A stretch of DNA of 36,561 nucleotides from Planctomycetota bacterium (GTDB lineage Bacteria > Planctomycetota > Phycisphaerae > UBA1845), in NCBI GenBank assembly GCA_024278695.1, contig JAJRSR010000052.1, positions 1 to 36,561 on the forward strand, read 5' to 3'. The number at the start of each line of letters is the position of its first letter. Position 1 is the first letter of the stretch. The notes below the pieces were generated by a model. It was not told the origin of the DNA and made no database searches. It was given only the letters and a program-made list of their open reading frames with translations. The position numbers and the translations under genes are program-made. This document shows, piece after piece, positions 4,175 through 36,561 of the stretch.

Positions 4175-6172
4175 CTACTCGTCGTTGGGTTCATCTGCTG
4201 CTTCGTCCGCGCCGTCGTTGGCCCCGTCAACCTTTTCCGGCTTCGGCTGCTGTGCGATTTTTTGCACGATGAGCCGTCGCTGAAGGTTCGCCCCTTCGTC
4301 CGTGGGGCGAAGGCGCAGCGCTTCGTCGCAAGCCCTCAAAGACGCCTCAAGACGGTCCGATTTTGCGAACGCGATGGAAATTCCCTGATGGGCCTCAAAG
4401 TAGTTGGGGTTGGCCGTGATCGCTTGATCGTATGATGTGATGGCCGCTTCGGTCTTGTCGTCAAGCATCATCGCTTCAGCCTGATGGTAATACGCCTCGG
4501 CAAATCCCGGCTGAGCGGCCAGCGCCTGGTTATAGAAATCCACCGCAACATCGTAACGCCCGAGTGCGGAGGAACTACCGCCGAGACGCATGTATGCGGT
4601 CGCATCCGACATGCCCAGCTCGACGGCACGAGTGATTTCATCGAAAGCCTCGCGGTGACGTAGTTGGTCGTAGAGCAGATCTCCCAGTTGAAAGTGAGCG
4701 TCGGGTGCGTCGTCAGCGAGCGCTACAGCAAACCGAAGGGCTGCCTCCGCATCCACAAACTCTCCGAGGGACTTGAGCGCCATCCCCACACCGAGCGGTC
4801 CACGGTAATTGCCCGGGCGTTTTTCGACGACGTCGTTCCACATCGTCAGGTCATCCTTGTAGTCCTGGTTTCGCACGATCGTGCCGTAGGCAAGGGGTGG
4901 TGTTGCTAGCAACAGTAGTAGGCCCGCCGTGGCATAACGTGAGCCGGAGGCTTTGCCAAAAAACTCCATCAGCAGCGTATGAACCATGAGCACTGTGAGC
5001 ACGACGATAGCCGCCAACGGCAGGTACATACGGTGCTCGGATAGGGGATCCCAATGCGGCAAGACGCTCGAGGTCGGCGCGAGCGTGAGGAAAAAACAGG
5101 CGGCCACGAAGCCGATGGCGGGACGTCGCAGGAGTGTCACCAACGTCCAAACCGCCAATGCCAATGCGATCAAGATCGGAATCGCACCGGCCCCGAATGG
5201 TGACCGGACCGGGTTCCAGTGATAATCAACGCACAGCGATTGAGGCCAATAGGAGAGCTTGAGGTATTGGAGTATCACGCCGGCCTGTGTCATGGCGTAT
5301 TCTGCCGGAGTGAAGCCGGTGGCGGTGGGGACGGACGGTGATGCGCTCGATTCGAACATGCTTGGGATGAGCCCGTTGACGAACAACACGCCCCAAGTGC
5401 CAAAGAGCCCGGCGTACAGCCAGCCGCGTCGTTTGAACAGGCTGGACAGGGAGCGTGCCAGGTAGATCCGATCGAACATCAGAATGACGATCGGCGCGGT
5501 GACCATTGTGCCCTTGCTGCCCATGCCCAGCGCACTCGCGACGATCGCGGCCACGAGCCAGCCGGTGCCGCGCAGGCTCGCCGTGCCGCGTATCACGCAG
5601 TACCACGTGAGCAGGTAGAACAGCGTCACCAACGCTTCCGCGCGATTCGCGCTGTAGCTTACGACTTCGGTCTGTAGCGGGTGAATCAGCCAGATCAACG
5701 CGCAGGCGAAGGCGATCCAAACGGCACCCGCGCCGAACCGCTCTCTCAAGCGAGCTGTGTTGAGCGTCCGCCGGATGATGCCGTAAAGGGTCAGACCCGC
5801 CAGCACATGAATCAGCAGGTTGACGGCATGATAGCCGGATGGGGCCAGCGCCCCGAAGCCGTAGTTGATCGCAAGCGTGAGATTGGCGATCGGCTGGGTA
5901 CCGTAGAACGATGTCCCTAACTCGTGCAGGCGGTCGTTGTTCACGATCTCGGCCGTATCGCGCATGACGAATGGGTTTTCGAGCATGTTTGCGTAGACCG
6001 CAGCGCCGGCCAGTGCTAGTGTGATCAAGAGCAAGACGTGCCATCCGGGTGGCGGCGCTGCGACATCCTCGACCTGCGCGGATTGTATATAGTCGGAAAT
6101 CTTGATCGTCATTTGTGCTCGCCGTCTGTTAGGAAATACCTCGACAACCGAAGCACCATAGCGCTCCCGCAC
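4175..6172 (-). CDS. multi-spanning membrane protein with C-terminal TPR repeats (TMTC-like), copy 1
   Basis: The N-terminal ~430 residues contain roughly ten hydrophobic segments with the layout of a GT-C type glycosyltransferase, as in TMTC/DUF1736 proteins. The ~200 C-terminal residues are TPR repeats (for example 'DAHFQLGDLLYDQLRHREAF' and 'AYYHQAEAMMLDDKTEAAI') ending in an acidic tail. The first loop reads FVMRDTAEIVNNDRLH, where the neighbouring paralogue has FVFDDRPHIFANDRI, so the first Asp of the DD pair is Arg here. 'GYHAVNLLIHVLAGLTLYG' is shared with the paralogue. The GTG at 6172 has AAAGGGG about 10 nt upstream; an ATG at 6112 (645 aa) is an alternative. The TMTC assignment rests on layout and short motifs, so substrate and activity are unknown. 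Confidence 0.8.
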   Translation of the reverse strand: MRERYGASVVEVFPNRRRAQMTIKISDYIQSAQVEDVAAPPPGWHVLLLITLALAGAAVYANMLENPFVMRDTAEIVNNDRLHELGTSFYGTQPIANLTLAINYGFGALAPSGYHAVNLLIHVLAGLTLYGIIRRTLNTARLRERFGAGAVWIAFACALIWLIHPLQTEVVSYSANRAEALVTLFYLLTWYCVIRGTASLRGTGWLVAAIVASALGMGSKGTMVTAPIVILMFDRIYLARSLSSLFKRRGWLYAGLFGTWGVLFVNGLIPSMFESSASPSVPTATGFTPAEYAMTQAGVILQYLKLSYWPQSLCVDYHWNPVRSPFGAGAIPILIALALAVWTLVTLLRRPAIGFVAACFFLTLAPTSSVLPHWDPLSEHRMYLPLAAIVVLTVLMVHTLLMEFFGKASGSRYATAGLLLLLATPPLAYGTIVRNQDYKDDLTMWNDVVEKRPGNYRGPLGVGMALKSLGEFVDAEAALRFAVALADDAPDAHFQLGDLLYDQLRHREAFDEITRAVELGMSDATAYMRLGGSSSALGRYDVAVDFYNQALAAQPGFAEAYYHQAEAMMLDDKTEAAITSYDQAITANPNYFEAHQGISIAFAKSDRLEASLRACDEALRLRPTDEGANLQRRLIVQKIAQQPKPEKVDGANDGADEAADEPNDE

Positions 6173-6287
6173 CCGTCATCGACCCCTTTCTAGTATCGTT
6201 ATCGTACGTGCCCGAGGCAAGTAACCAGCCCAAACCCGGCTACGTCCGCATATCAGCCTAGATCCACGCGGCGGTGCCAGCCTCTGC

Positions 6288-8024
6288 TCAATCGGCCGCG
6301 GCCGCCAGGGCATCGGCGAGTGCTTTTTTGGCCTGGGGATGGTTCGCGTCCAGCTCCAGTGTACGGCGAAACGCATCGGCCGCTTCCCCGTACTTTCCGA
6401 TCATACCCAGTCCCCAGCCCAGCTCGAACGAAGCCTCGACATGGTTCGGTTTCAGGGCGACCGCCTTGCGGAACGCTGCAATGGCCTCGGTGGCCTTCTC
6501 CCGGCGGATCAGGCCCCAGCCGATGTGGTAGTACGCCTCGGCCAAGACGTCACGGCGCGTTCGATCCGTGCTGACTTCTATGGTGCGGCGAAACGAACGC
6601 TGTGACTCATCAAACCGCTTGGCACGCCCCAGGGCGACGGCCAAACTGTAGTGAGCCCGGGGATTCTGCGGACGCACGATCGTCGCTTGCTTCCAGAGTT
6701 TGACCTCATTCTGGTAATCCGCGTTGCGTTGAAACGTGCGTATGCCAAGGACTGTCGCCAGAACGGCCACGGCTACGATGCACGTTCGATACACTCCGGT
6801 AGAACTCTTGCCTGCGCGTCGCCGGGACCATCGCACCAGGTAAACGCTTCCTGCAATGAGCAGTGCAAGCACGGCCGCCAGCGGAAGGTACATACGGTGT
6901 TCGAATAGCGGGTCTCGAATCGGAATGACGCTTGACGTCGGTGCGAGAATCACGAAAAAACTGAGCCACGCAAAACCGGCGAGCGGATGGCGTCGGCACA
7001 TCCAGATAGCCAGCCCCAGCAATACGAGGATGATGGTTCCGGGAAGTATGGCTTGAGATAGTGACGTGACGATAGGCCAGCCGTAATCAATGCAGAGTGG
7101 GCTTGGCCAAAGCGTGAGTCGGAGGTAGTGCAACAAGACGCCCGGCTGAGTGAGCAGGTATTCCCAGGGTGTCACGCCTGTCACGGCGAAGCCCACGTTG
7201 GCGTTTGGGCGACCGACCGTGACAAGCACGCCGGACGTGACGCCGCAGATCGCCAGGATAGAGAGCGTGCTGGTTAGCGCAACATAAAAAAACCATCGCG
7301 CACGCAGCGACGCCCGGAGCGATCTGGTCACGACGATCCAATCGTAGAGCAGTACCGTAAGTGGGGCGGTGAGCATGACCGCTTTGGTGGCCATGCCGAG
7401 TGCACAGGTAGCCACGCAGGCCACCAGCCACGCTCGGCGTCCCTTCGAGCCATCCATGCCGCGTACCGCCGCATAGAGCGTGAACAGGTAGAAAAGCCCC
7501 ATCGTAGACTCGCCGCGCTGGATCACGTACGTCACGCTCTGCGTTTGCAGGGGGTGAAGCAACCATAGCATGGCGACGGCGAATGGAAATGCGATCGGTG
7601 TACGATTGGTTGTCGCCTTGCGGTTGGCGGCACCCGCGCCAACCCGCCTCAGCAACGCAAACAGTGTTAGCCCCGCTAGGATGTGAACGACGACGTTGAA
7701 CAGGTGGTAGCCTGTCGGGTCAAAGCCGCCAACGGCATGGTTTAGTGCGAGGGTGAGATCGACCATCGGCCTGCGCCCGGACAATGTTGTGGTAAGCGGG
7801 AATACGGAGGTGATCCGATCGTTTGCGAAGATGTGCGGTCGATCGTCGAAGACGAACGCGGCGGACAGGCTGTTGCTATAGACCGCCGCCGTGGCCAGGG
7901 TGAGCACGGTCATCGCAAGGGCCGCCATTTCTCGATCGCCCACGATCCACGCCGTCCGGGAAGCGCGGCTTGTTGTGGTGTCGGTGCGCGAGGCAGTTTT
8001 TCTCTTATGATCTGATCTTGACAC
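6288..8024 (-). CDS. multi-spanning membrane protein with C-terminal TPR repeats (TMTC-like), copy 2
   Basis: This is the paralogue of the following gene (4175-6172), 115 nt upstream of it on the same strand, so a tandem duplication is likely. After a basic cytoplasmic N-terminus it has many TM segments, and its first periplasmic loop retains the paired acidic motif FVFDD expected of GT-C glycosyltransferases. Other conserved stretches are 'GYHLFNVVVHILAGLTLF', 'WLLHPLQTQSVTYVIQR' and 'LAPTSSVIPIRDPLFEHRMY'. The C-terminal ~140 residues are TPR repeats ('AYYHIGWGLIRREKATEAIA', 'ASFELGWGLGMIGKYGEAAD'). The GTG at 8024 has GAGGG 6 nt upstream; an in-frame ATG at 8072 (594 aa) lacks an SD. It may glycosylate or modify exported proteins, which is inference only. 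Confidence 0.8.
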   Translation of the reverse strand: MSRSDHKRKTASRTDTTTSRASRTAWIVGDREMAALAMTVLTLATAAVYSNSLSAAFVFDDRPHIFANDRITSVFPLTTTLSGRRPMVDLTLALNHAVGGFDPTGYHLFNVVVHILAGLTLFALLRRVGAGAANRKATTNRTPIAFPFAVAMLWLLHPLQTQSVTYVIQRGESTMGLFYLFTLYAAVRGMDGSKGRRAWLVACVATCALGMATKAVMLTAPLTVLLYDWIVVTRSLRASLRARWFFYVALTSTLSILAICGVTSGVLVTVGRPNANVGFAVTGVTPWEYLLTQPGVLLHYLRLTLWPSPLCIDYGWPIVTSLSQAILPGTIILVLLGLAIWMCRRHPLAGFAWLSFFVILAPTSSVIPIRDPLFEHRMYLPLAAVLALLIAGSVYLVRWSRRRAGKSSTGVYRTCIVAVAVLATVLGIRTFQRNADYQNEVKLWKQATIVRPQNPRAHYSLAVALGRAKRFDESQRSFRRTIEVSTDRTRRDVLAEAYYHIGWGLIRREKATEAIAAFRKAVALKPNHVEASFELGWGLGMIGKYGEAADAFRRTLELDANHPQAKKALADALAAAAD

Positions 8025-8212
8025 AACCCGCCCTCTTGCCACCGTTCGGCGTGATTCGCGGCTCAGCGCCATCGTCGGCTCGGACCGATAGCGTAAGACG
8101 GGAAGCCTATGGTTTCAAACATGGTATTCATTGCGGGCCGGAGCAGCTTCGGCTATGGTTCCCGTTACGCGTTTCGCGGGATCTTGGGGTTTGACAGCAC
8201 GGAGGTCTGACG

Positions 8213-10406: not shown

Positions 10407-10513
10407 TTCGAGCTCCTTGGTTCCGTTGGGGCGGTGCGGCTCCAAAACACGCATCCTATAGCCCGCGAGCCCGGCGCTCCAACCGGGTTGTCGGATTGGC
10501 CGGCGCTGTCAAA

Positions 10514-10540
10514 TTGGCATAGCGATGAGGATTGTATGAT
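10514..10540 (+). promoter_or_regulatory. candidate sigma-70-type promoter of the chaperone cluster
   Basis: TTGGCA (10514-10519) and TATGAT (10535-10540) each match the sigma-70 consensus at five of six positions. The 15-nt spacer is shorter than ideal. If used, transcription would start near 10547 and leave a leader of about 250 nt before groEL(A). No CIRCE element (TTAGCACTC-N9-GAGTGCTAA) is present anywhere in 10407-10796. Confidence 0.35.
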
Positions 10541-10545
10541 CGTGG

Positions 10546-10560
10546 CTGCCAGGGTGGCAG
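10546..10560. promoter_or_regulatory. palindrome over the predicted transcription start, possible operator
   Basis: CTGCCA-GGG-TGGCAG is a perfect 6-bp inverted repeat beginning 6 nt after the candidate -10 box, where a repressor could block transcription initiation. The regulator is unknown. The same sequence could instead form a hairpin at the very 5' end of the transcript. Confidence 0.3.
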
Positions 10561-10689
10561 GGCATGAACGTCGTCGCAGCATTAGCTGGCGAACGGTAAG
10601 TTGTTGTGTTGGCTTTAGTTATGTCTCGCGAACTTTTCGGCACTTGGTGGACCGGGGATTGCAACAAGGCCAGCCAGCATCCGGTCTGG

Positions 10690-10710
10690 GTTTGCGCCGT
10701 GGGCGCAAGC
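10690..10710 (+). promoter_or_regulatory. hairpin in the groEL(A) leader
   Basis: GTTTGCGCC-GTG-GGCGCAAGC forms a 9-bp stem (one G-U pair) with a 3-nt loop, 86 nt before the groEL(A) ATG. It could be a leader structure affecting mRNA stability or translation. It does not cover the SD, so it does not look like a simple RNA thermometer. No gene is seen in the rest of the 10407-10796 spacer. Confidence 0.3.
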
Positions 10711-10796
10711 GGGTGGCGGGTGATGATACAACAGTGGCTGAACTGGACGAGCCGAACTACGGGCGAACCGTTTTCGCGTACAGAGGAGACGATCAT

Positions 10797-12425
10797 ATGG
10801 CGGTCAAGCAATTGACCTACGACCAGGAGGCTCGACAGAGTTTGCTGGCGGGTGTCGAAAAACTGGCGAGCGCAGTGAAGACCACCCTCGGGCCGCGCGG
10901 GCGAAACGCCGTGCTGGATAAGGGATGGGGCGGACCCACGATCACGAAGGACGGTGCGAGCGTCGCCGAAGAGATTGACCTGGTTGATAAAACCGAGAAC
11001 ATGGGGGCTCAGCTCGCGAAGGAGGCGGCCAGCAAAACCAGCGATGCCGCCGGCGACGGTACCACGACGGCCACCGTGCTCACCGAGGCGATGTTCAAGA
11101 ACGGATTGAAGAACATTGCGGCCGGTGCCGATCCGTTCGCGTTGACGCGTGGTATGGAAGCGGCTGTCTGCAAAGTCGTGGACAAGCTGGAGACGTTGTC
11201 CCGTCCGGTTCGGGTTGGCAAGCGTGACGAGATCGTCAACGTCGCTAAGATTTCGGCTAACAACGACGGCGTCATCGGCAAGCTGCTGGCCGACGCTTTT
11301 GACAAGGTCGGTAAGGACGGCGTGATTACCGTGGAAGAGGGCAAGACCTCCGAGACCGTGATCGATGTCGTCGAGGGGATGCAGTTCGACCGTGGTTTCC
11401 TCTCCCCCCATTTCGTGACAGACCAAAACAACATCACTTGCTACCTGAGCAAGGCGTTTGTGCTGATCCACGAAGAGAAAATCAGCAGCGTGCCTAAGCT
11501 TGTGCCGTTGTTGGAGAAAGTCGCAAAGGCGAAGCGACCGCTTCTCATCATCGCTGAAGATATCGAGGGCGAGGCGTTGGCGACACTGGTTGTCAACAAG
11601 CTTCGCGGCATTATCAACGTCTGTGCCGTGAAGGCACCGGGCTATGGCGATCGCCGCAAGGCGATGCTCGAGGATATCGCGGCGTTGACCGGTGCGACGC
11701 CCATCTTCAAAGACCTTGGTACTGATCTGGAGAAGGCGTCCATCGCCGACCTTGGTCAAGCCAAGAAGATCCACGTAGACGCGAACAACACGACCATCGT
11801 TGAGGGTGCCGGTTCGTCCGATGCCATCAAGTCGCGGATCGCGCAGATCACGATGGAGATCGAAAACTCGACGTCAGATTATGACACCGAAAAACTTCAG
11901 GAGCGCAAAGCCAAGCTCGTGGGCGGTGTGGCTCAGATCAACGTGGGCGCGGCTACCGAGACCGAACTGAAAGAAAAGAAGGCCCGTATCGAAGATGCGC
12001 TGCATGCCACGCGTGCGGCTATCGAAGAGGGCATCGTAGTCGGCGGCGGCGTGGCGTTGGTTCGCTGCATCGAGGCGCTCGACGGTATCAAGCTCAAGGG
12101 CGACGAGAAAACCGGTGCGGCCATCGTGCGTGATTCGCTCTCGGCCCCGCTTCGTCAGATTGCGGATAACGCCGGCTACAACCCCGGTGTTGTGCTGCAC
12201 AAGGTGATGGAAAAGACCGGGTCGTTCGGGTTCAATGCGGATTCCGGTGAGTACGTCGATCTCATGAAGGACGGTGTGATTGACCCGACTAAGGTGACGC
12301 GTTGTGCACTTCAAAACGCCGGCAGTGTCGCTCGAATCCTATTGAGCACGAACGTCTGCATCTCAGATAAGCCGGAAGAAGACGCCGGCGGCGATGAGGG
12401 CATGGGCGAGGATATGGACTACTAA
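10797..12425 (+). CDS. groEL: chaperonin GroEL, copy A
   Basis: A 542-residue 60-kDa chaperonin subunit that folds proteins in an ATP-driven double ring with GroES. The start is set by AGAGGAGA (10782-10789) before the ATG. The open frame extends 121 codons upstream but has no chaperonin sequence there. ATP-site motifs are '[13 protein letters not shown]', '[13 protein letters not shown]' and '[10 protein letters not shown]'. The apical domain has '[15 protein letters not shown]' and '[14 protein letters not shown]', and the C-terminal equatorial part has '[12 protein letters not shown]'. The tail is short, acidic and glycine-rich ([12 protein letters not shown]), not a run of GGM repeats. 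It starts the chaperone cluster, 44 nt ahead of groES. Confidence 0.96.
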
Positions 12426-12469: not shown

Positions 12470-14492
<2,023 letters not shown>

Positions 14493-31118: not shown

Positions 31119-31844
31119 ATGGCCAAGAAACCCACAAGGGCCGCCAAAGGTCAAAAGACACCGGACACCGTACCGGCCATCGAAGAGTCCATCCAAGAGA
31201 AGAAGAAACGTGTTCGCCGCATTTTGACCAAGCTCAAGAAGTGCTACCCGCAGGCCGAATGTGCCCTGACGCACCGGAGCCCGTACCAGCTTTTGATCGC
31301 GACGATACTGTCGGCTCAATCCACGGATGAAACGGTCAACAAGGTGACTCCGGTTCTCTTCAAGACGTACAAGACGCCGCGAGCACTGGCCGACGCCCCG
31401 CGCGAGGAGGTCGAGACAATCATCCATTCGACCGGGTTCTTTCGTCAGAAGGCCAAGAGCATCCAGGGGGCCGCCAAGAGAATCGCCGACGATTTCTCGG
31501 GGAAAGTCCCGCAGGACATGGACGATCTGACGTCGCTCCCCGGTGTCGCAAGAAAGACGGCCAACGTCGTGCTCGGCACGGGGTTCGGTATCAATGAGGG
31601 CGTCGTCGTTGACACGCACATCGGTCGTCTCGCCACGCGGTTGGCCATGACCTGGACGAGCAAGAACGCCAAGGATGCCGTCAAGATTGAGCGTGACCTC
31701 ATGGAGATTGTGCCACGAAAGGAATGGACCCCTATGGGCCACACTTTGATCTGGCACGGTCGGAAGATCTGTAGTGCCCGCAAGCCTGAGTGCGAGGCAT
31801 GTGCACTGGCGAAGCTCTGTCCGTCAGCCTCTTCGTTTGGCTAG
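31119..31844 (+). CDS. nth: endonuclease III (DNA glycosylase/AP lyase)
   Basis: A 241-residue base-excision repair enzyme that removes oxidised pyrimidines and cuts the AP site. A ~30-residue Lys-rich N-terminal extension precedes the fold. The helix-hairpin-helix is 'LPGVARKTANVVL' with catalytic K146; the catalytic Asp is D165 in 'VVVDTHIGRLATRL'. The [4Fe-4S] loop is complete: C218-x6-C225-x2-C228-x5-C234. It starts 8 nt after moaE and is the last gene of the mrp-nth group. Confidence 0.96.
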   Translation: MAKKPTRAAKGQKTPDTVPAIEESIQEKKKRVRRILTKLKKCYPQAECALTHRSPYQLLIATILSAQSTDETVNKVTPVLFKTYKTPRALADAPREEVETIIHSTGFFRQKAKSIQGAAKRIADDFSGKVPQDMDDLTSLPGVARKTANVVLGTGFGINEGVVVDTHIGRLATRLAMTWTSKNAKDAVKIERDLMEIVPRKEWTPMGHTLIWHGRKICSARKPECEACALAKLCPSASSFG

Positions 31845-32192: not shown

Positions 32193-33125
32193 ATGCCAAA
32201 GGGGAAATTGGTTATTAAGCCTGAGCTCGGGGGGATCGTTAGAACACTCAATACGTTATCGTTCCCCACACGGTTTGCGGTGGAAATCTGTGCGGATTGC
32301 AATTTATCTTGCACGATGTGTCATCACGGTTCGATGCGTCGTCCCAAAGGTAATATGCCGTTGGCGTTGTTTAAGAAATGCGCGGACGAAATCGCAGCGA
32401 TTTCTCCAAGCACTCAGGTCTGGTTTTCATTCTGTGGTGAGCCGCTGCTCGATCCAGAGCGGCTGTTGCAGATGCTCGCTTACGGCAGGTCCGTGGGACT
32501 GCGTTCGTTGAACATCAACACCAATGGCATGCTTTTGGTGCCTGAACTTGCGGAGCCAATCTTGGAGTCGGCTCCAAATCTTATCGTTTTTGGCGTGGAT
32601 GGTTTGACCGGTCCCACGTACGAAAAAATTCGAGTCGGGGGTGATCGGGATATTTTGTATGCCAACATCGAGCACCTATTGGCTGTCCGAGACAAGCGTG
32701 GTGGTGGACCGGAAATCCAGGTGCAGTTCATTGAGATGGATGAGAACGAGCACGAACTGGAGGAATACAAGGCTTATTGGCTGGATCGAGGCGCGACCGT
32801 CAAGGTGCGCAACAAATTGAGTTGGGGTGGAAAGTTTTCAACGCCTTTGTGTGCTCCCGAATCCGGTCGTATCGCGTGCCCCTGGGCTTTGACCATGATG
32901 CACGTGTTTTGGGATGGCCGGGTACCGCGGTGCCCCGGCGACACAGAGGGCGTAGAGGGTGCGGGGAATGCTTGGGATGAGTCCCTTCAGGATCTTTGGA
33001 ATCGTCTCAGTCCCAATAGGGAGCACCACCTCAACGGTGATTTCGATCTGCTTCCAGAGCGATGCGCCACATGTACAGATTGGATGACAGGCGCTGCGGA
33101 GAGAATTCGCCCGCAGTGCAACTGA
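32193..33125 (+). CDS. radical SAM protein with partial SPASM-type C-terminus
   Basis: A 310-residue enzyme. The radical SAM [4Fe-4S] motif is C36-x3-C40-x2-C43 ('CADCNLSCTMCHHG'), followed by 'FSFCGEPLLD' (the GGEP-like SAM-binding strand) and 'LNINTNGMLL'. The C-terminal part has extra cysteines C229, C247, C291, C294 and C309 in a SPASM/twitch-like pattern ('ACPWALTMMHVFWDGRVPRC', 'ERCATCTDW'), suggesting an auxiliary cluster. GGAGG lies 8 nt before the ATG. Similar proteins occur in surface-polysaccharide and peptide-modification loci; the substrate here is unknown. The next gene, an acyltransferase-carrier fusion, begins 47 nt downstream, so the two probably act in one pathway. Confidence 0.9.
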   Translation: MPKGKLVIKPELGGIVRTLNTLSFPTRFAVEICADCNLSCTMCHHGSMRRPKGNMPLALFKKCADEIAAISPSTQVWFSFCGEPLLDPERLLQMLAYGRSVGLRSLNINTNGMLLVPELAEPILESAPNLIVFGVDGLTGPTYEKIRVGGDRDILYANIEHLLAVRDKRGGGPEIQVQFIEMDENEHELEEYKAYWLDRGATVKVRNKLSWGGKFSTPLCAPESGRIACPWALTMMHVFWDGRVPRCPGDTEGVEGAGNAWDESLQDLWNRLSPNREHHLNGDFDLLPERCATCTDWMTGAAERIRPQCN

Positions 33126-33172
33126 AAAGAATTGGAACGTGGGACTGCTTGTTCGGCTTCGGGGATGCGGCG

Positions 33173-34171
33173 ATGAAAACCTTATACTTGTGCGGCGCGG
33201 GGAATTCGGAGGGCGTGCGGCTTGCGAGCCATATCAACCGAGACTATGCGTTTTGGAATCGAATCGTTCTCTTGGATGATGATAAGTCCAAGCACGGCGG
33301 TACACTGATCGACGTCGATATCGAGGGGACGATCGATTGGCTGGCAAGTGTGGATCCTCTGAGTTCGGCTGTGGTCAACCTGGTGGCGAGGACCACCGCT
33401 AAGAGGCAGTCGGTTCGTGCGCGGCTTCTCGCATTCGGCATTCCGTTCGCATCGCTCATTCATCCGGGGGTGGACACCGAGGGGGCCGAGGTCGCCACGG
33501 ACGCTGTGGTCTACCACAACGCCACCATAGGCCCAGAAGTATCCATCGGTGACGGATCGGTCATATTCATGGGGGCGATTGTTGGGCACGAATGTGAGGT
33601 GGGTCAGTGTTGCGTTGTCGCGGCAAATGCAGTGCTCAACGCGCGGGTAAGACTTGGCGAGGGCGTCTATGTGGGGGCCAATGCTACGGTGTTGCCGGAG
33701 ATTAGCATCGGCAAAGGTGCTACGATCGGCGCGGGGTCGGTCGTGATTCAAGACGTACCGGATGGTGCCACGGTCATGGGCGTTCCAGCGCAGATCATTG
33801 CAGGGGTGAATCAGCAAGACTTGCCGGATGCCGCGAATCGTTCAGGGCGGCGTGAAGGATCCATCATCAGTAGCGCTGCCGCGGAGTCAGCCATCAGGGC
33901 CATCTGGGAGGTGGCGCTTAAAAAGACAGGGTTTGGTGCCAGCGAGAACTTTTTTGATTTGGGAGGGACTTCGCTTCTAGCGATTCAGGTCCACGGTGAG
34001 ATTCAGCGGTCGATTCATAGGGAGTTTCCCGTTGTTGATCTCTTCAGGTTTCCGACGCTTCAATCATTGGCGTCTCATCTTGGAATGCAGCCTGGGCGTG
34101 ACCAGCCGAGTTCGAAACGTATTAGTCGAACGGAGATTCGCAAGGCACGCATCGCTCGGAGGGCTTCTTGA
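33173..34171 (+). CDS. NeuD-type acyltransferase fused to a phosphopantetheine carrier domain
   Basis: A 332-residue two-domain protein. Residues 1-~210 are a NeuD/PglD-like sugar O/N-acyltransferase: a Rossmann-like start ('LYLCGAGNSEG') and a left-handed beta-helix of hexapeptides ('ATIGPEVSIGDGSV', 'ANAVLNARVRLGEGVYVGAN'). Its catalytic His is probably H139 in 'IVGHECEVG', and it closes with 'VMGVPAQIIAG'. Residues ~235-305 are an acyl/peptidyl carrier domain with 'ENFFDLGGTSLLA', where Ser267 would carry the phosphopantetheine arm. A basic tail ends the protein. ATG 33173 has GGGGA 8 nt upstream; the frame is open to 33062 but would overlap the previous gene. The fusion suggests that the acyl donor is tethered to the enzyme's own carrier domain. 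Confidence 0.87.
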   Translation: MKTLYLCGAGNSEGVRLASHINRDYAFWNRIVLLDDDKSKHGGTLIDVDIEGTIDWLASVDPLSSAVVNLVARTTAKRQSVRARLLAFGIPFASLIHPGVDTEGAEVATDAVVYHNATIGPEVSIGDGSVIFMGAIVGHECEVGQCCVVAANAVLNARVRLGEGVYVGANATVLPEISIGKGATIGAGSVVIQDVPDGATVMGVPAQIIAGVNQQDLPDAANRSGRREGSIISSAAAESAIRAIWEVALKKTGFGASENFFDLGGTSLLAIQVHGEIQRSIHREFPVVDLFRFPTLQSLASHLGMQPGRDQPSSKRISRTEIRKARIARRAS

Positions 34172-34210: not shown

Positions 34211-34729
34211 CTAACGGGCGCGGCGCGTGGCATGCTTTTTCTTAGGGGGAGCGATCTTTGTTTTCCGGGTGGTTTTGGAACGCTGCGTCAGTTGATGTTT
34301 CTTTGTCAGGTCTCGGACCGTGGTTCCATAAGCGAAATCATGGAACGAGGCGCGAACAATTTTCCATTTGTCGTGGCCGGCGCACGGATCGTCATCGCTA
34401 CAGGTCGTGTTGCCGAACGGACAGGGGCGTCGGTCCGCCAACACCACCTCGAACGGCTGAAGGATCTCGCCAAGGCAGATTTTTTCCGGCGGAAGCGCTA
34501 GGGAAAATCCGCCACCTTTACCTGGAGATGCGGTCAACACCCCGAACCGAACGAGCGTGGCCAGCACAGCCGAGAGGTACTTTTGTGGCACATCTGTAGC
34601 CGTCGCGATCTTAGGGCCGGAGATTGGCCATGCGTCGGGATTGTTCGCGATGTAGAGGGTCGCTTGCAGTGCGTATTCCCCGGTTCGTGTGAGCATTGGC
34701 GCGTTGTCATCCTTGGGCATGAAAGTCAT
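34211..34729 (-). CDS. Rrf2-family transcriptional regulator with Fe-S-type cysteines
   Basis: A 172-residue regulator. The winged helix is 'LTRTGEYALQATLYIA' ... 'DVPQKYLSAVLATLVRFGVL', followed by the Rrf2 wing 'SPGKGGGFSLALPPEKI'. C103, C110, C116 and H119 lie in 'CPFGNTTCSDDDPCAGH', the layout used by IscR/NsrR-type members to hold an Fe-S cluster. Unusually, the last ~25 residues are an added Lys/Arg-rich tail. ATG 34729 has AGGG 7 nt upstream; ATG 34696 (MLTRTGEYA) would match the usual family start. It is convergent with the acyltransferase-carrier gene, leaving 39 nt between the stops. Targets are unknown. Confidence 0.9.
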   Translation of the reverse strand: MTFMPKDDNAPMLTRTGEYALQATLYIANNPDAWPISGPKIATATDVPQKYLSAVLATLVRFGVLTASPGKGGGFSLALPPEKICLGEILQPFEVVLADRRPCPFGNTTCSDDDPCAGHDKWKIVRASFHDFAYGTTVRDLTKKHQLTQRSKTTRKTKIAPPKKKHATRRAR

Positions 34730-35254: not shown

Positions 35255-36457
35255 CTATGGTGAACCCAGGACCAAGCGGAAGCCGTAGCTCGCGCCGCGG
35301 CGATCGGCGGGGCGATCGTATCGGACCGCGCAGCGAAGAAACGCAGCGTCCCCGAGCCAAGAACCACCGCGTATCGCACGAGAACCGCCGGTTGCTGGTC
35401 CGCGCGGGTTGTCATATTCGCTCGTCTCGTAGTATGACGGACTGAACCAGTCGTTGCACCATTCCCACGCGTTACCGCTTATATCATACAATCCGTAACC
35501 ATTGAGCATGGAGGGGCCGGTAGGTGTCTGTCCGCCATCGAAGTACCCTGCGGGCGTGGTCCATGGTTGGGCATTCACTTCGTATGGATCCGCGGAGTTC
35601 CAATAGTTGGCATTTGCTCCGTTGATACTATCCCCCCAGGGGTATCGGCGGTATGGCGCTCGCTCGCCTCCACGGGCTGCGTATTCCCATTCCGCTTCAG
35701 TTGGAAGGCGGAACCCGTTCGCATCAAAGTCGCAGTCCCAGGTTGTTAGGTCGTAGCAGGGTGACCGTCCGTCCTGTTCACTCCTCCAGTTAGCATAAGC
35801 GGCGGCCCCGTACCAACTCACTTCTAGCATCGGGTGAAGCTCTTTTCCAGGGATGACGCTGAAGTGGCCATGGCTGAGGCGTATGCGGCTGTCAGCGTCA
35901 ACATCGCTTATCTCACAGTAAACTTCGGTTCCACCAGCAGGGTATATGAGACCGTCAACCACCTCGATCGAGCCTTGAGATAACGCCGCGCTGAGAAAAT
36001 CTGCGTACTGTTGGTTGTGGATTTCGTGAATGTCCATGTAAAACGAGTCGACGAAGATAGCGTGAACGGGTAGTGCGTCTGCCATCGCATCATGGTGGTC
36101 GCCCATGGCGATTTCGCCACCGGGAATGAGCGTCATCCCGCAGGGTGAACCAATCAGGCCCACAGATCTACCATAGAGTACCGCATAGTCCGATAGCTCG
36201 ATTTCTCCGTTCGCGTTGCAGTCGAACGGGGCGAGACATGATGGTTCGGGCGTAGGGCCGAAGCAGTTCTGAAATACCGAGACATCGGCCAGAACACTTC
36301 CGAATACACTCTGCGTGGACCCGGTTGGCCGTCCGGATGTTTCGACCACCGTTTCGATGATCCCGCGTCGGAAATCCCAATCGACCGCATCTGAAGGAAG
36401 TACGTTGACGAGCCATACCGCTGATGCCACTAGTAGAAGGAAGTTTCTCTGTTTCAT
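35255..36457 (-). CDS. secreted SUMF1/FGE-sulfatase-fold protein with dockerin-like segment
   Basis: A 400-residue exported protein. ATG 36457 has GAGGAG 9 nt upstream and begins a signal peptide (cleavage near Ala24). Residues ~55-100 are a planctomycete-type dockerin-like segment ('LADVSVFQNCFG', 'FDCNANGEIELSDYAVLYG'). Residues ~107-400 are the SUMF1 fold: 'IPGGEIAMGD', 'EVSWYGAAAYANWRSEQDGR', 'RLPTEAEWEYAARGG', 'YPWGD' and 'GLYDISGNAWEWCNDWF'. At the formylglycine-enzyme copper site, which normally reads GGSxxC...C, this protein has G369 and L374, so it lacks the two catalytic cysteines and is not an active FGE of that type. Its role is unknown; sugar- or protein-binding outside the cell is a guess. 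Confidence 0.88.
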   Translation of the reverse strand: MKQRNFLLLVASAVWLVNVLPSDAVDWDFRRGIIETVVETSGRPTGSTQSVFGSVLADVSVFQNCFGPTPEPSCLAPFDCNANGEIELSDYAVLYGRSVGLIGSPCGMTLIPGGEIAMGDHHDAMADALPVHAIFVDSFYMDIHEIHNQQYADFLSAALSQGSIEVVDGLIYPAGGTEVYCEISDVDADSRIRLSHGHFSVIPGKELHPMLEVSWYGAAAYANWRSEQDGRSPCYDLTTWDCDFDANGFRLPTEAEWEYAARGGERAPYRRYPWGDSINGANANYWNSADPYEVNAQPWTTPAGYFDGGQTPTGPSMLNGYGLYDISGNAWEWCNDWFSPSYYETSEYDNPRGPATGGSRAIRGGSWLGDAAFLRCAVRYDRPADRRGASYGFRLVLGSP

Positions 36458-36561
36458 GTTTCGATGCTCCTCTGTTGGATGCCGCAGCCTTGTCGCAGTC
36501 GAGCGAGACGACGGCATGATCCGCGTATGTCAATGTCCCTGGCGGGAGTCCTTCGTCAGCG

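Follow-up and report, generated by a model that had tools for sequence, protein, structure and literature searches.

A gene for a radical SAM enzyme, followed closely by a gene for a NeuD-like acyltransferase that ends in a phosphopantetheine carrier domain, raises the question of whether the two proteins form a functional unit and which reactions they may catalyze. The two genes are located near the right end of the window, the whole stretch of DNA that was analysed, which comprises 36,561 nucleotides (G000:C320:1-36561) of a planctomycete genome assembled in 331 contigs (G000). In our preferred reading, to which we assign a probability of about 0.45, the genes constitute a unit that would oxidize a sugar or cyclitol in the manner of BtrN and transfer an acyl group from an in-built carrier that is loaded in trans. 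A second copy of the pair is present in G433, a genome from another class of the same phylum, and is used for comparison throughout. The locus contains the following features:

31119-31844, plus strand: nth, the upstream flank, 348 nt from the radical SAM gene.
32193-33125, plus strand: radical SAM protein with a twitch domain, BtrN-like; an open reading frame of 310 aa identified by Pfam and by profile and fold matches in the PDB, 68% identical to its G433 counterpart.
33126-33172, plus strand: gap of 47 nt between the two genes of the pair; the corresponding G433 genes overlap by ATGA.
33173-34171, plus strand: acyltransferase derived from NeuD, with a fused phosphopantetheine carrier domain; an open reading frame of 332 aa identified by Pfam, 49% identical to the G433 fusion over residues 1-303.
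34211-34729, minus strand: Rrf2 regulator, the downstream flank, convergent to the pair.

The two reading frames and their spacing, described earlier from the DNA letters, were confirmed, and the flanking genes had been correctly assigned to nth and Rrf2 according to both their positions and Pfam matches. The pair ends 2.4 kb before the right end of the window. Its genes have GC3 values of 0.59 and 0.62, compared with approximately 0.70 for most genes of the window. Neither in the window genome nor in G433 is the pair flanked by an aminotransferase, sugar-nucleotide, or loading gene.

Several other features of the window are of separate interest. Two different GroEL genes are positioned in close proximity on the plus strand (10434-12425 and 12876-14492). 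Adjacent paralogous membrane proteins, both with C-terminal TPR-like repeats, are encoded on the minus strand at 4175-8072. A formylglycine-generating-enzyme-like protein (FGE-sulfatase) with a low GC3 of 0.60 is encoded near the contig end, at 35255-36517.

Across 392 genomes of the phylum, one further fusion was found, on contig C102 of G433, where the radical SAM gene again precedes the fusion gene. The two fusion proteins share 47-49% overall identity. The neighbors of the G433 pair, a PD40/PKD protein and a DUF7133/cytochrome c protein, are unlike the nth and Rrf2 flanks of the window. The window genome is the only one of the 114 genomes of its order to encode a fusion, no other fusion is present among the 29 genomes of the class of G433, and searches of viral, phage, and plasmid sequences yielded no additional one. 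A contig scan with poorly conserved patterns derived from the single fusion protein of the window (P0001) returned nothing useful. Shared by two bacteria that are distant relatives within one phylum, the radical SAM and fusion genes have the appearance of a rare and portable unit of two genes that may make an unusual acylated, sugar-like molecule. The rarity of the pair, its differing flanks, and its composition are compatible with horizontal spread, in agreement with the earlier impression of a small insert, which is borne out by the rarity, the GC3 that is low for the window, and the unrelated flanks in G433.

The isolation of the pair, without further pathway genes, might be taken to indicate that two unrelated genes became adjacent by chance and that the carrier domain is degenerate. 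This explanation is hardly credible, since G433, a member of another class with other flanks, has the same gene order, a gene overlap, and intact motifs. The G433 pair contradicts both parts of the explanation, which was rejected. The earlier note had proposed that the pair be judged by whether the two genes are ever found together elsewhere and whether the carrier serine is conserved; in one further genome, G433, the genes are adjacent and the serine is retained.

The radical SAM protein belongs to the radical SAM superfamily according to its match to the Pfam Radical_SAM model (2e-11, 44.8 bits, cut-off 29.5), and it also matches the SPASM model (9e-5, 23.1 bits, cut-off 21.5). It contains two cysteine motifs:

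32298-32321, plus strand: C36-x3-C40-x2-C43, the motif of the SAM-binding 4Fe-4S cluster; its three cysteines are unchanged across an alignment of 25 family members.
32877-33074, plus strand: twitch domain with C229-x17-C247-x43-C291-x2-C294, the presumed ligands of a single auxiliary Fe-S cluster; all four cysteines are invariant in 25 relatives and aligned to the C-terminal cysteines of BtrN.

The first motif had been recognized correctly in the earlier note, whereas its count of five further C-terminal cysteines has to be corrected to six after residue 200 (220, 229, 247, 291, 294, and 309), of which only 229, 247, 291, and 294 are conserved in the 25 relatives. A complete SPASM domain contains seven cysteines in the pattern CX9-15GX4C - CX2CX5CX3C - C, which bind two clusters. 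Despite the match to the Pfam SPASM model, the CX5CX3C part is missing from the window protein. Its four cysteines match those of BtrN, and a hairpin is predicted at residues 235-245, as expected for a twitch domain, which is a truncated SPASM domain with one cluster. Because the CX5CX3C part is missing and only four cysteines are conserved, the C-terminal domain is assigned as a one-cluster twitch domain. Cysteines 33, 63, 81, and 220 are common to the window and G433 proteins only, and Cys81 immediately precedes the GE motif.

A search of PDB sequences with a profile of 23 family members identified BtrN with an E-value of 2.6e-32, followed by SkfB with 5.8e-15. The structure of the radical SAM protein was predicted with a pLDDT of 88, and in the fold comparison BtrN with 2-DOIA ranks first, ahead of DesII (a sugar enzyme), SuiB, and BlsE. 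Thus, by both profile and fold, the closest solved relative is BtrN, an aminocyclitol dehydrogenase; the earlier identification as a radical SAM enzyme stands, and its type, previously left unnamed, can be specified as BtrN-like. BtrN, the 2-deoxy-scyllo-inosamine dehydrogenase of butirosin biosynthesis, converts a cyclitol hydroxyl to a ketone, and its auxiliary cluster probably takes the second electron (PMC9012708, PMC6231123). The two proteins share the CX3CX2C motif and a twitch domain whose four cysteines occur in the same order. Unlike BtrN, the window protein is longer (310 versus about 250 residues, with 17% identity in the fold alignment), contains extra conserved cysteines, and has an acyltransferase-carrier fusion as its partner. 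The BtrN-like fold is no proof of dehydrogenation, because the sequence space of SPASM and twitch enzymes does not cluster by function (PMC6231123).

Two other functions of the radical SAM protein were considered and rejected. Curated RiPP maturase models gave no match above their cut-offs; precursor genes were viewed among the listed open reading frames only. A role in defense was dismissed as the similarity to viperin is weak and confined to residues 31-147, the radical SAM core, and a full-length viperin (pVip) match was not found.

The nearest relatives of the radical SAM protein form one clade with the proteins of the two pairs (support 100/98). The genes of the sister clade adjoin AsnB and WbqC genes, and some also formyltransferase, DegT aminotransferase, and glycosyltransferase genes; a carrier match is absent from these glycan-type neighborhoods. 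More distant relatives on Lawsonia and Smac51 plasmids adjoin DegT and AsnB. The Lawsonia intracellularis plasmid cluster resembles the window in that a NeuD-family gene adjoins a radical SAM gene of the same family. It differs in that the NeuD gene, which encodes no carrier, is directly upstream of the twitch-type radical SAM gene, the product of which is 28% identical to the window protein, and in that DegT, methyltransferase, WbmS-like deacetylase, and AsnB genes follow to form a full glycan-type cluster. As separate observations, a neighborhood of a sister-clade radical SAM gene with asparagine-synthase-like (amidotransferase) and WbqC-like genes, partly also with formyltransferase or DegT, recurs at three loci (L132, L055, and L056 in G134, G043, and G015), and a close radical SAM relative at 8282-9181 of L133 (G194:C196) is positioned beside apparent molybdopterin-oxidoreductase and ferredoxin-type subunit genes, not glycan genes.

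The fusion protein can be divided into an N-terminal Rossmann-like domain, a left-handed beta-helix, a linker, and a carrier domain with a C-terminal tail:

33173-33436, plus strand: N-terminal Rossmann-like domain, diverged, with GAGN-x-EGVRLA in place of GAGGHGR (PglD_N result, alignment, and predicted fold).
33455-33793, plus strand: left-handed beta-helix catalytic domain (Hexapep match, predicted beta coils; the best PDB fold match is the PglB acetyltransferase domain).
33587-33589, plus strand: His139, the presumed general base, invariant in 19 relatives.
33800-33871, plus strand: flexible linker from the beta-helix to the carrier (pLDDT below 50 for residues 210-227).
33890-34081, plus strand: PCP-type carrier domain (PF00550; PDB fold matches to PCP domains).
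33971-33973, plus strand: Ser267, the presumed phosphopantetheine attachment site, in LGGTSL(LA) in the window and LGGDSL in G433.
34082-34168, plus strand: Arg-rich C-terminal tail with a predicted helix at residues 319-331, as on chain-terminal NRPS PCPs (similar tails are present in NRPSs of both genomes and in one Nostoc NRPS).

The beta-helix with its presumed catalytic histidine is evident from the Hexapep match (7e-17, 60.7 bits, above the gathering score) and from the retention of His139 in 19 of 19 relatives. The likeness to NeuD described earlier is real, but it does not extend to membership of the curated NeuD family: the window and G433 fusions score 148.2 and 134.1 bits, respectively, against TIGR03570 (NeuD_NnaD), below the cut-off of 160.8, which is passed by the related protein of genome G011 (185.9) and by the Lawsonia NeuD (190.1). 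The nucleotide-sugar domain PglD_N matches 17 of the 19 relatives and neither of the fusions. Judged from the sequences, the acceptor site of the fusions has probably changed, because both proteins fail the NeuD cut-off and the PglD_N match. The loss of the PglD_N match means that the acceptor is possibly not a nucleotide sugar. It is decidedly unlikely that the N-terminal domain has been re-purposed for an acceptor that is not a sugar at all, such as a peptide, lipid, or small amine. In favor of this alternative, a PglD_N match is missing from the two fusions alone among the 19 relatives, and both score below the NeuD cut-off. Nevertheless, a Rossmann-like fold is still predicted, Asp35 and Gly52 are invariant in the alignment of relatives, and the radical SAM partner resembles sugar and cyclitol enzymes.

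In the phylogenetic tree, which contains long branches and has to be read with some caution, the NeuD parts of the window and G433 fusions group with the free-standing protein from G011 with a support of 97/94. The G011 gene (L054, G011:C46, 9233-10150, minus strand) is followed, after a TAG and a short gap, by an open reading frame in the same frame for a carrier protein of 78 aa (PF00550, 37.5 bits). Therefore, all three known members of the clade are carrier-linked, two by fusion and one by an adjacent gene.

The fused carrier domain matches PP-binding (PF00550) with an E-value of 3.5e-12 and scores of 46.8 bits in the window and 56.2 bits in G433, well above the cut-off of 20.8; the carrier reported in the earlier note, with Ser267 in LGGTSLLA, is thus intact. 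In the predicted structure, the N-terminal domain and beta-helix are followed by a disordered linker (residues about 210-230) and the carrier, in which Ser267 is positioned at the start of a helix; with a pTM of 0.44, the relative placement of the domains is not reliable. Most members of the large family of left-handed beta-helix acyltransferases use soluble acyl-CoA or a general ACP. The earlier suggestion that the fusion holds the acyl donor on its own carrier gains support, since in G011 the gene of the nearest free NeuD relative is directly followed by a separate carrier gene. The term self-loading was not upheld: neither copy of the pair has a gene for a loading enzyme beside it, and the carrier would therefore need to be loaded in trans.

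The absence of a loading gene nearby is also compatible with the carrier being a late structural, regulatory, or docking add-on to an enzyme that, like PglD and PerB, continues to use soluble acyl-CoA, and the PglB acetyltransferase domain with acetyl-CoA is indeed the best fold match of the beta-helix. We consider this rather unlikely, as the serine motif has been retained in proteins with 47-49% overall identity and the closest non-fused relative has a carrier gene directly downstream. A weak additional indication comes from the GxPA(R/K) end motif, in which 14 of the 17 free relatives have Arg or Lys where both fusions have Gln207.

Enzymes that may activate and load the carrier are encoded elsewhere in the genomes. 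Phosphopantetheinyl transferase matches are present in G000 (two), G011, and G433, as are AMP-binding proteins (ten matches in G000). The window genome also encodes a 1569-aa single-module NRPS (L077, G000:C201, 3471-8180) that consists of a formyltransferase, an adenylation domain with an embedded MupA-type flavin monooxygenase, and a PCP. A 1519-aa relative in G433 (L181, G433:C412, 3726-8285), in which a condensation domain replaces the formyltransferase, is 51% identical to it over 1011 columns. No such split adenylation match was found in G011, which lacks the pair. The A-monooxygenase-PCP NRPS, present in both genomes with the pair, could be the partner or missing third gene. Another candidate loader, the stand-alone adenylation enzyme P0005, was rejected because it apparently has its own carrier and has no close G433 match in a limited search with three candidates scored per genome. 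It is encoded on a 3120-bp contig (L091, G000:C303) that contains in a row a carrier-protein-like end, the amino-acid adenylation enzyme, and an acyl-CoA dehydrogenase; the enzyme seems to have its own carrier because the end of the sequence just upstream resembles that of an acyl carrier protein and the acyl-CoA dehydrogenase follows. A special kinship of the fused PCP to one same-genome NRPS PCP was also discarded, as the identities of 35-47% are no closer than those of PCPs generally.

A more specific proposal, which we regard as unlikely, is that the pair is a mobile pathway in which the BtrN-like enzyme and the fusion make an (amino)acylated amino-sugar or aminocyclitol, with the carrier loaded in trans by the A-monooxygenase-PCP NRPS of both hosts. 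If true, NRPS chemistry would feed directly into glycan-type tailoring. Also improbable is that the radical SAM enzyme modifies an (amino)acyl group tethered to Ser267, and that the NeuD domain then passes the modified group to an acceptor. The radical SAM protein is paired with a carrier-bearing protein in both known cases, the carrier is of the NRPS type in genomes where the A-monooxygenase-PCP NRPS makes tailoring of a PCP-bound amino acid likely, and the pair-specific cysteines include Cys81 directly before the GE motif. However, the closest relative of known structure, BtrN, has a free aminocyclitol as its substrate, the radical SAM sister clade occurs in glycan-type neighborhoods that lack a carrier match, and the Lawsonia NeuD beside a related radical SAM enzyme has no carrier domain.

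According to the preferred reading of oxidation coupled to carrier-based acyl transfer, the radical SAM enzyme would generate a 5'-deoxyadenosyl radical that removes a hydrogen from the carbinol carbon of a sugar- or cyclitol-like substrate. The second electron would pass to the single auxiliary Fe-S cluster, converting the hydroxyl to a ketone. The ketone may then be converted to an amine by a DegT-type aminotransferase encoded elsewhere, of the kind found beside the radical SAM relatives. The NeuD-derived enzyme, with His139 as the base, would create an amide bond to an acyl or aminoacyl group, supplied as a thioester on the C-terminal carrier of the fusion swinging on its flexible linker. 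A phosphopantetheinyl transferase encoded in the genome would convert the carrier to the holo form, and an AMP-forming enzyme or an NRPS adenylation enzyme would load it in trans. This explanation is weakened by the lack of an aminotransferase, sugar-nucleotide, or loading gene beside the pair and by the pair being known from two genomes. The pair-specific Cys33, Cys63, Cys81, and Cys220 hint at a distinct chemistry, which also counts against it.

The window proteins combine properties of several known systems. Like the NeuD, PglD, PerB, and VioB sugar N-acyltransferases (TIGR03570), the fusion has a Rossmann-like N-terminal domain, a left-handed beta-helix, and an invariant histidine; unlike them, it is under the curated cut-off, lacks a PglD_N match, and has a C-terminal carrier. 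LpxA and LpxD are left-handed beta-helix acyltransferases with a carrier-bound acyl donor, which they share with the proposed function of the fusion, but they use the general ACP, have no fused carrier, and transfer fatty acyl groups. The viosamine island of P. syringae contains vioB with its own acp and with KAS III and reductase genes (vioS and vioR), and thus combines a NeuD-family enzyme with its own ACP for a non-acetyl N-acyl group (PMC3927599). There, in contrast to the window, the carrier is separate, the loading genes are of the fatty-acid type, and a radical SAM enzyme is absent. A carrier-linked donor is therefore not without precedent in the NeuD family. Overall, the two-gene unit, the conserved serine, and the insert-like appearance of the first interpretation hold, whereas self-loading lacks support. 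No report of a NeuD protein fused to a carrier was found in the open-access literature (subscription journals not covered). What appears to be new here is that an NRPS-type carrier is covalently attached, that the partner is a BtrN-like radical SAM enzyme, and that the N-terminal domain has changed. The fusion is not a member of NeuD_NnaD, as it is under the cut-off, nor is the radical SAM protein a proven dehydrogenase.

The pair represents a small, defined system for studying the combination of carrier-bound donors with radical oxidation on sugar-like molecules, and its size permits direct expression and assay. The carrier-linked NeuD subclade, with two fused members and one with a separate carrier, and the altered acceptor domain of the fusions predict novel acceptors and acyl groups.
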